Under the pieces are notes generated by a model. It did not search any database, was not told the origin of the DNA, and worked only from the letters and a program-made list of their open reading frames with translations. DNA of 64,000 nucleotides from Fibrobacter sp. UWR3. GTDB taxonomy: Bacteria > Fibrobacterota > Fibrobacteria > Fibrobacterales > Fibrobacteraceae. The stretch covers positions 1 through 64,000 of the forward strand of contig NZ_FRCW01000005.1 in the NCBI RefSeq assembly GCF_900143055.1. The letters are read 5' to 3'. This document shows positions 58,327 through 60,537 of the stretch, piece after piece. Position 1 is the stretch's first letter. Every line of letters begins with the position of its first letter. Made by a program: the position numbers and the translations under genes.

Positions 58327-60537
58327 ATGACCGAACAGAAAGACTTCGACTTTACCCGCTATTTTGAACTGAAGAAGCAACTGGAAGAAGCGAGCCGTCT
58401 CTACTACAAGGAAGGCGTTTCCCCCATGAGCGACCAGGATTTCGACTTCGGGCTCAAGGAGATGGAAGCGCTCGAGGCGAAGTACCCGGAACTGCGCGGT
58501 CAGGGTTCGCTCACGCAGCGGGTCGGCAGTGACCTGACGAATGACTTTGCGAAGGTCGCGCACGCCGTGCCCATGCTCAGCATCGCGAACGTGTACAGCG
58601 CCGAGGAAATGGCAGAGTTTGTAAGGGCCGCAGAAGACGGAATTGCCGATCTAGACGAAAGACGAAAGACGAAAGACGAAAGAGGCGAGAACAACCCAGA
58701 ATCTCTATCGTCTATCGTCTACCAGCGAAGCGATCTTTCGTCTAAAAAATGGATTTGCGAGCGGAAAATCGACGGCGTTTCGCTTTCCATCGTGTACGAG
58801 AACGGACGCTTGAAGCAGGCGGCCACCCGCGGCGACGGCGCCCAGGGCGACGACGTGACCCTGAACGCACTCACGATTGCGGACATTCCCGAATACTTTG
58901 ACGCGAAGAAACTGAAGATTGACCCGAGCGAAATCCCGCAGGGCACTTTCGAGGTGCGCGGCGAAGTCTACATGGAGCGCGAAGCCTTCGAGCGCCTGAA
59001 CGAGCAGTTCATATTGGAAGGCAAGAAGATTTTCCAGAACCCGCGCAATACCGTCTCGGGTTCGCTCAAGCTCAAGAGCGTGGCCGAATGCAAGACTCGC
59101 CCGATGCGATTCTTCGCCTACCACATACCGCAAAGCAACAACAAGACACACGAAGAAAACCTGCTACAGCTCAAGCGCCTCGGGTTCCACACGAACGACT
59201 ACTGGACAGCGGACACCACCGACGAAATCATGAAGATTTCGGAGCAGATTGGCGCGAGCCGCGACAGCCTCCCCTTCGAAATCGATGGCATGGTCGTGAA
59301 GCTGAACGACCTTGCCATGCAGCGCGCCCTCGGAACCACGAGCAAGAGCCCGCGCTGGGCCATCGCCTACAAGTTCAAGGCCGAGCGCGCCTACACGCCG
59401 CTCCTTTCCGTGGAATTCCAGGTGGGCCGCACCGGTGCGGTCACGCCCGTAGCGAACCTTGCACCCGTGCGCCTCGCGGGCACCACCGTCAAGCGCGCCA
59501 CCCTCCACAACTTCGACGAAGTCTCGCGCCTGGACCTGCATTACGGAGACACCGTCGGCGTCGAGAAGGGCGGCGAAATCATCCCGAAAATTACCGACGT
59601 CAAGAAGGAACTCCGCCCCGCCGGAGCCTCCCCCGTCGTCGCCCCCGAAAAATGCCCGGTTTGTGGCGAGCCTTTGACGCACGTGGATGGCGAAGTCATT
59701 CTCCGGTGCGAAAACATGCACTGTGCGGCGCAGGTGCAATGCCTGTTCGAGCATTTCGTGAGCCGCGAGGCCATGAACATCGAGAACCTCGGCCCCGCCC
59801 TCATCGCAAGCCTGATTGCTACAGGCAAAATCAAGCGCATCCCGGACCTGTACCGTCTCACCATCGAGGATTTGGAATCGCAGGAGCGTATGGCCAAGAA
59901 GAGCGCGAAGAACGTCTACGACGCCATCGCCGCCTCGAAGGAACGTAGCCTCGAGAACCTTCTGCACGGGCTCGGCATCCGATTCGTGGGCCGCACAAGT
60001 GCCAGGAACCTCGCGAAGCACTTCCGCACGCTGGAAAAAATCCGCACAGCCACCGTCGAAGACCTGCAGAACGTGACCGACGTGGGCGAACGCATCGGGA
60101 AATCCGTCTACGACTTCTTCCACACGCCGCTCTACACGAACGAAATCGACGAACTCGTGGCCCTCGGGTGCCCCACCGAATTCAAGGGCGTCGTGAAGAC
60201 GCTATTCCAGGGGCAGACCGCAGTCATTACCGGAACGCTCCCGAGCATGGACCGCGATGAGGCCCGCAAGCTCATCGAAGAGAACGGCGGGAAGGTATCG
60301 AGTTCCGTGAGTAAGAAGACGAGCTGGGTCCTCGCCGGCGAGGCGGCCGGAAGCAAACTCACGAAAGCGAACGAGCTCGGCATTCCCGTGCACGACGAAG
60401 CATGGCTTTTAGCGCAGATTGCCGCAGCAGATTCCGACGCAGGTAACGAGAAGCCCGCGGCATTACCTGCCAGCGACAACAGCGGCATTTCGGGCAACAA
60501 AGCCGGCGATGCAAACGGACAACTTAGTTTGTTCTAA
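58327..60537 (+). CDS. ligA: NAD-dependent DNA ligase with repeat-derived insert
   Basis: Joins nicks in replication and repair. The 736-aa protein has domain Ia (YYxxxxPxxSDxxYD form: [18 protein letters not shown]), the adenylation motif [10 protein letters not shown] with Lys147, the OB fold, four zinc Cys (CPVCGEP...CENMHC), HhH and a C-terminal BRCT domain ([20 protein letters not shown]). Residues 109-140 are an in-frame insertion from a 93-bp element (58652-58744); without it the lysine would be at 116, close to Lys115 of E. coli. The insert lies just before the catalytic loop and the enzyme is presumably essential, so it must be tolerated. TATATT ends six bases before the ATG. Confidence 0.96.
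58652..58744. repeat. 93-bp TAGACGAAAGA element inserted in ligA
   Basis: The element begins TAGACGAAAGA and ends TCTTTCGTCTA, a perfect 11-bp terminal inverted repeat. Inside are direct GACGAAA units on the left and TATCGTC units on the right. Length 93 is 31 codons and it has no stop in the ligA frame. Confidence 0.8.

Follow-up and report, generated by a model that had tools for sequence, protein, structure and literature searches.

LigA is essential, and the question raised by the ligA locus of Fibrobacter sp. UWR3 is how a palindromic repeat comes to be carried within the reading frame of such an enzyme. The window, i.e. the whole 64,000-nt stretch of DNA that was analysed (contig NZ_FRCW01000005.1, positions 1 to 64,000), belongs to the genome hereafter named G000. 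A sequence-only reading of the window had described inside ligA a 93-bp element bounded by perfect 11-bp terminal inverted repeats and free of in-frame stops. Both points were confirmed: at positions 58652-58744 the reverse complement of the first 11 bases matches the last 11 exactly, and the ligA frame is open throughout. The features of the locus are the following (window coordinates):

58327..60537, plus strand: ligA, full-length NAD-dependent DNA ligase, 736 aa (NCBIfam TIGR00575, E 1.5e-211; NF005932, E 6.9e-225)
58652..58744, plus strand: palindromic repeat element, in frame, 93 bp, 31 codons (sequence and frames, hairpin, related genus-wide copies)
58652..58662, plus strand: left terminal inverted repeat TAGACGAAAGA, 11 bp, perfect (sequence)
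58653..58683, plus strand: heptanucleotide array (AGACGAA) x 4.4, giving the DERRKTK cycle in any frame (TRF, 100% matches)
58704..58744, minus strand: inverted heptad-core-heptad unit, reading TAGACGAAAGA - TCGCTTCGCTGG - TAGACGATAGACGATAGA on the minus strand
58734..58744, minus strand: right terminal inverted repeat, TCTTTCGTCTA on the plus strand, pairing with the left TAGACGAAAGA
58765..58767, plus strand: codon of the catalytic lysine, Lys147 (116 without the insert), invariant in 21 LigAs (adenylation motif aligned to 2owo)

Within the element, the AGACGAA array (58653-58683) is followed by a short spacer and then by the inverted unit (58704-58744). The latter is often dispersed alone, and element positions 53-97 were matched at 90-98% in many Fibrobacter genomes. 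When the RNA of the 93-bp element was folded, one long hairpin was obtained (-35.2 kcal/mol, z -5.35), and none of 200 shuffled sequences folded equally well. The terminal inverted repeats are of the sort that characterizes MITEs. Size and palindromic structure also agree with those of the in-frame palindromic elements of Rickettsia and Wolbachia (RPE and WPE; ~100-150 bp, with terminal inverted repeats), although 93 bp is slightly short.

Alignment to E. coli LigA (2owo) paired residues 13-107 with 9-103 and residues 141-696 with 109-667, so that the insert region comprises 33 residues here versus 5 in the E. coli protein. The 31 residues said to be added before the adenylation motif are correct arithmetically, Lys147 minus 31 being 116 (115 in E. 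coli). An upstream in-frame ATG at 58300 would provide an alternative start and a protein of 745 aa. In the AF2 model of LigA, a weak one (pTM 0.46), pLDDT fell below 50 at residues 118-138, and LigA loops were found to be richer in polar residues (0.74 vs 0.60). A second intact ligA had been named as an observation that would refute the sequence-only reading; none is present, since this genome has a single LigA, and what lies in frame in this single-copy gene is indeed a dispersed repeat. One relative (G036, contig C31, 3352-5355) carries a second, divergent LigA-like gene with 36% identity. At the C-terminus, the LigA of the window ends in QLSLF (60520-60534) after a variable linker. A Q(L/T/I/F)SLF end was observed in 51 of 56 Fibrobacter LigA tails; it resembles the sliding-clamp-binding consensus.

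The abundance of the repeat was analysed in the window and in the genome. Allowing up to one mismatch, TAGACGAAAGA occurs 13 times in the window versus 1.11 expected, with a maximum of 5 in 100 shuffles. The 3.55-Mb genome contains 48 exact copies, as compared with 3 of the reversed control pattern. In a 731-kb sample of G000, the ligA insert was covered 4.08-fold by matches elsewhere, whereas the coverage of the rest of the frame was 0.21. Perfect tandem arrays of period 7 (at least 18 bp) numbered 19 in 733 kb versus 1 in a Markov simulation; the same scan gave 0-1 arrays for each of the periods 4, 5, 6, 8, 10 and 11, and 18 for period 9, which is codon-based. An excess of period 7 was also found in three relatives. 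The heptads of G000 belong to the families AGACGAA, GAATTCC, TGTGAGG, TATCAAT and AATGACT and are mostly intergenic; over-represented tandem 7-nt units located mainly between genes are what defines heptanucleotide simple sequence repeats. AGACGAAAGACGAA is common across the genus Fibrobacter, and among 31 genomes of other genera of the family it was detected only in G096 (one copy) and G108 (23 copies). G108 nevertheless has an uninserted LigA span of 41 residues, indicating that heptads can exist without use of the ligA site.

The same unit as in ligA had been reported at two intergenic sites, 17335-17388 and 46602-46628. This proved to be incorrect: neither is a copy of the 93-bp element, and the common part is the AGACGAA motif only. 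These two features are:

17335..17388, plus strand: intergenic relative, heptad-hairpin-heptad, TAGACGAAAGA - hairpin CCCACC/GAA/GGTGGG - TAGACGAAAGACGAAAGA
46594..46626, minus strand: intergenic heptad array only, (TCTTTCG) x 4.7 on the plus strand (TRF)

The TAG that opens the first of them (17335-17337) is apparently the stop codon of the upstream gene. Several other element copies begin directly at gene ends, but the 36 elements are too few for a bias of placement at such ends to be claimed. Another repeat of the window, at 10876-11124, is a 99-bp tandem repeat (2.5 copies) that includes the palindrome CCCCGCTCGAGGCGGGGATGAC, of the hairpin-ATGAC kind. Hairpin-ATGAC was considered as a genome-wide class and rejected. 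A hairpin was found upstream of 97 of the 1198 ATGAC sites, compared with 18-84 for other pentamers, which indicates that many of these cases are due to chance; the GC-rich clear cases alone served as examples.

The ligA loop was then compared across Fibrobacter. A conserved, non-repeat loop of 31 residues throughout the genus had been the other observation named against the sequence-only reading, and this is not what was found. Fibrobacter LigA is well conserved except for the insert loop, which differs between species, and the C-terminal tail. The span from MLSI(A/S)N to KIDGVSL measures 41 residues in all 12 readable outgroup LigAs (eight other genera) and 44-110 residues in Fibrobacter; two entries of 41 residues in the longer list of spans, L101 and L102, have loops identical to those of the outgroup genomes G108 and G110. 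The Fibrobacter loops contain AGACGAA/AGACGAG composites, CTCGAAC and CTCACAC heptads around a GCGACC/GAA/GGTCGC hairpin, CCGAATT heptads, CTGGATCC...CAGGATGAC, other hairpin-ATGAC palindromes, and nested mixtures of these. Of the 59 distinct ligA loops, 45 contained a recognised repeat motif; among 1272 windows of matching length taken downstream in ligA, 14 did so. These figures amount to a description with a control and not to a clean test, because the motif classes were drawn up after the loops had been read and the species are related and non-independent. No recognised motif was found in the other 14 loops.

From one Fibrobacter species to the next, the repeat family that fills this LigA loop changes in nearly every case. 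Two LigAs with 99.1% identity outside the loop, L034 (G047) and L032 (G007), carry unrelated inserts, and the LigA nearest to that of the window (96.8%) has a 16-residue loop from which the element is absent. Hence, a repeat in an essential enzyme, which had been regarded as rare, is not so in this genus: nearly every Fibrobacter LigA loop is extended and most are repeat-derived, and RsmG, RsgA and MnmE are comparable. The ligA frame stays open through the insert wherever both halves of the gene share one contig, the exceptions being G063 and G078, with breaks elsewhere. A second type of insert (from G055) had matches in 77 of 80 genomes. The ligA insert of G005 was covered 1.55-fold by its own genome, versus 0.01 for the rest of the frame, while those of G044 and G077 gave no match of at least 18 bp in 400 kb of their own genomes, which suggests that some inserts are old or decayed. 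Since own-genome matches are present for some inserts and absent for others, recent and old inserts seem to coexist in the genus. A pooled 12-mer test of the ligA inserts of all species against G000 alone was not significant (P 0.09).

LigA is not the only host. Besides ligA, the rsmG of seven species and the rsgA of G065 carry the composite of the window in frame, and in all three genes it reads (L/I)DERRKTKDE...LSSIV(Y/C)QRSDLSS; in rsmG it is placed directly before the SAM-binding motif. Arrays reading DERRKTKDE or DERRETRDE were found in frame in MnmE, HrpA (two sites), peptidase U32, an SNF2 helicase, CoaBC and TopB, and RRKTIDER or RRKTKDER in a ModF-like ABC protein and in UvrB. A related array is also in frame in a radical-SAM-like protein, assigned by reading. 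The composite or related arrays are thus located, like RPE and WPE, within several unrelated conserved genes. In their hosts the arrays lie between the G4 and G5 motifs (MnmE), in the linker before the UVR motif (UvrB) and between the two domains (CoaBC). As in ligA, a single position receives many repeat families in rsmG, rsgA and mnmE, the last two as judged by reading. For rsmG, 40 of 50 loops showed a recognised repeat motif, a count made without control windows. The rsmG insert of G077 had an own-genome coverage of 1.49 versus 0, and the within-genome repeat test was negative for the rsmG insert of G044. In rsgA, the composite has four heptads in G065 versus one and a half in G009, in frame in both. 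Nine of ten further rsgA alleles have a short turn (PEEG, GGE, SEE) and that of G000 a longer, hairpin-bearing insert. Comparison of the filled allele (G065) with the short ones revealed that the turn codons had been replaced, with no clean target-site duplication.

Some additional arrangements were observed in these and other hosts. In the UvrB of G000 (L191, contig C9, 143700-147800), three repeat-like stretches occupy one linker at residues ~650-715. In the radical-SAM-like protein L254 (G061, contig C12), the element plus the host segment GESRTDKHAYLYDRAEQSCTECKDER is repeated in tandem. On contig C5 of G000, a 381-codon open frame contains the CCCCGCCTGCGCGGGGATGAC palindrome in frame in a TilS-like reading (NETEDPRLRGDDNKDVIVTAHHAGDQAETMYMRLRRGT); other copies of CCCCGCCTGCGCGGGGATGAC are located within Ser-rich linkers.

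It had also been suggested that the element is selected to be translatable. A tandem 7-mer yields one and the same heptapeptide from all three frames of a strand (for AGACGAA the DERRKTK cycle, and FVFRLSS on the reverse strand), and 69% of all 7-mers are free of stops on a given strand and 50% on both strands. Selection for translatability is therefore only partly needed, the need being weakened for the arrays, which are frame-neutral. The 93-bp composite is open in just two of its six frames, indicating that purifying selection acting on the host gene determines which copies persist; selection on the element itself is not evident from these data. A single preferred frame was considered as a sign of selection on the peptide and is not claimed, since two of the six composite frames are open and all frames of the arrays are equivalent. 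Frame-neutral 7-nt units would provide a simple reason for the entry of heptads into coding sequences.

With considerable confidence, we take the 93-bp insert of ligA to be one translated copy of a palindromic repeat that is dispersed, probably non-autonomous and composed of heptad arrays and small hairpin cores, the copy having come to occupy a host loop subject to turnover. Translation of the insert in the cell is suggested by the open frame that has been kept. According to this model, repeats of several families would spread through Fibrobacter genomes, chiefly between genes, and most insertions into essential genes would presumably be lost. Copies that happen to be in frame in an extendable protein loop could survive purifying selection and be translated; afterwards they may drift, grow or shrink in heptads, and become overlaid or replaced by other repeats. 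The loop before the adenylation lysine of LigA would have been opened in the Fibrobacter lineage, giving rise to a permissive site, and RsmG, RsgA and MnmE would possess others. The advantage of a 7-nt unit would lie in the same heptapeptide being encoded in all three frames and in changes by steps of 21 nt, without frameshift. Tolerance rather than benefit, the route of insertion and deletion, and mobility are what we infer from these patterns. Neither a transposase nor a donor was found for the elements, nor a clean target-site duplication, and the turn codons of rsgA were replaced and not duplicated, hence "mobile element" is used here as an interpretation. RAYT was considered as mobiliser and rejected, PF01797 being absent from G000 (completeness 100) and from 9 of the 11 genomes in which the heptad pattern is most abundant. 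A RAYT-independent, active process might copy heptad and hairpin repeats and have them delivered or retained preferentially at fixed codons of ligA, rsmG, rsgA and mnmE, the sites being either targeted or occupied by loops whose change is advantageous. We put this forward only tentatively and regard it as unlikely; if it were true, core enzymes would carry hypervariable, species-specific disordered loops of selfish DNA.

Instead of arriving by transposition, the inserts might have been exchanged among strains, or from gene to gene, through recombination or gene conversion. Such exchange would account for unrelated loops in near-identical genes, and the presence of the same composite in rsmG, ligA and rsgA would permit copying from one gene to another. 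However, the ligA DNA flanks of G047 and G007 are 92-98% identical on either side of the loop, with no tract of raised divergence around the swapped segment, and no homology between ligA, rsmG and rsgA, repeats aside, is evident that could guide conversion. We consider an origin of this kind rather improbable.

Local replication slippage, with heptads arising in place in an ordinary low-complexity linker and no dispersal of an element, is somewhat harder to sustain. The number of heptads does shift in frame between relatives, as in the rsgA alleles of G065 and G009, and this genome prefers tandem units of 7 nt. In the genomes of many bacteria, heptanucleotides are reported to rank first among long simple repeats, and slippage of the polymerase has been suggested as the cause (Mrazek et al. 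2007, cited in PMC4679880). Slippage in place does not explain, however, why a non-repetitive core, CCAGCGAAGCGA, recurs with both heptad arms in ligA, rsmG, rsgA and elsewhere, nor why unrelated families occupy the same site in near-identical genes, and the hairpin-ATGAC palindromes are no tandem repeats. As a full explanation of the loops it is unlikely.

A loop that is itself a functional, adaptive feature of Fibrobacter LigA, the repeats being mere raw material, would be in agreement with its extension in all Fibrobacter LigAs read and not in the outgroups. Nevertheless, its sequence, length and origin vary even among LigAs that are 98-99% identical elsewhere, and no conserved residue pattern was found inside it, which makes adaptation a quite improbable explanation. 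Finally, removal of the element after transcription or its bypass by the ribosome, so that LigA is made without the insert, might be imagined from the very stable mRNA hairpin, but it is highly improbable, because an element removed or bypassed would need no open frame, and LigA inserts of many different lengths, like those of rsmG and rsgA, do preserve one.

Translated repeats kept within tolerant loops, the reading preferred here, have counterparts in known systems. Like REP/RAYT and the MITEs (ERIC, Correia/NEMIS, RUP), the Fibrobacter repeats are small non-autonomous palindromes, and several MITEs have terminal inverted repeats, TA ends and open frames fused to genes (PMC2229807). They differ in that no RAYT is present in this or in most element-rich genomes and in that the terminal inverted repeats of Fibrobacter are heptad arrays. 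The bacterial heptanucleotide repeats (TAACTGA of Beggiatoaceae; GGGNATC of Xanthomonas and Nostoc) are alike in being dispersed 7-nt arrays, mainly intergenic (PMC4679880, PMC4692102), whereas the Fibrobacter heptads join hairpin cores, are of several sequences per genome and lie in frame in conserved enzymes. No report of Fibrobacter repeats of either kind, heptanucleotide or in-frame palindromic, was found in the open-access literature searched.

The closest known kind is the in-frame palindromic elements of Rickettsia and Wolbachia, to which the Fibrobacter repeats are likened by description, without a claim of RPE membership. As summarized in a review, RPEs are palindromes of 105-146 bp that lay in 19 reading frames in the first report (PMC2229807), and a guanylate kinase containing an RPE was shown to be made and active (PMC2229807). 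Different RPE groups were found near the same site in orthologues, at solvent-exposed places and with frequent ATGAC (PMC3767692). The likeness thus concerns palindromes of ~100-150 bp in frame in conserved genes as well as differing groups near the same site of orthologues (PMC2229807, PMC3767692), and the ATGAC-rich RPE-4, RPE-6 and RPE-7 recall the hairpin-ATGAC inserts of Fibrobacter, again by description and not by sequence comparison. Selfish palindromes that lie in frame are known above all from Rickettsia and Wolbachia, whose genomes are small and whose lifestyle is obligately intracellular; their counterparts on many core enzymes of gut Fibrobacter, in genomes of ordinary size, indicate that such repeats are not confined to the intracellular lifestyle. 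The ~80 species form a natural insertion experiment in DNA ligase, RsmG, RsgA and MnmE, and offer a system for studying repeat movement. The unusual side is that unrelated repeats repeatedly use the same core-enzyme loops throughout one genus. Compared with RPE and WPE, the heptads, the phylum and the shared insertion sites are new: the host belongs to the Fibrobacterota, with genomes of ~2-5 Mb, the element consists of AGACGAA heptad arrays, and a small set of codon positions is shared, across dozens of species, by several unrelated repeat families.
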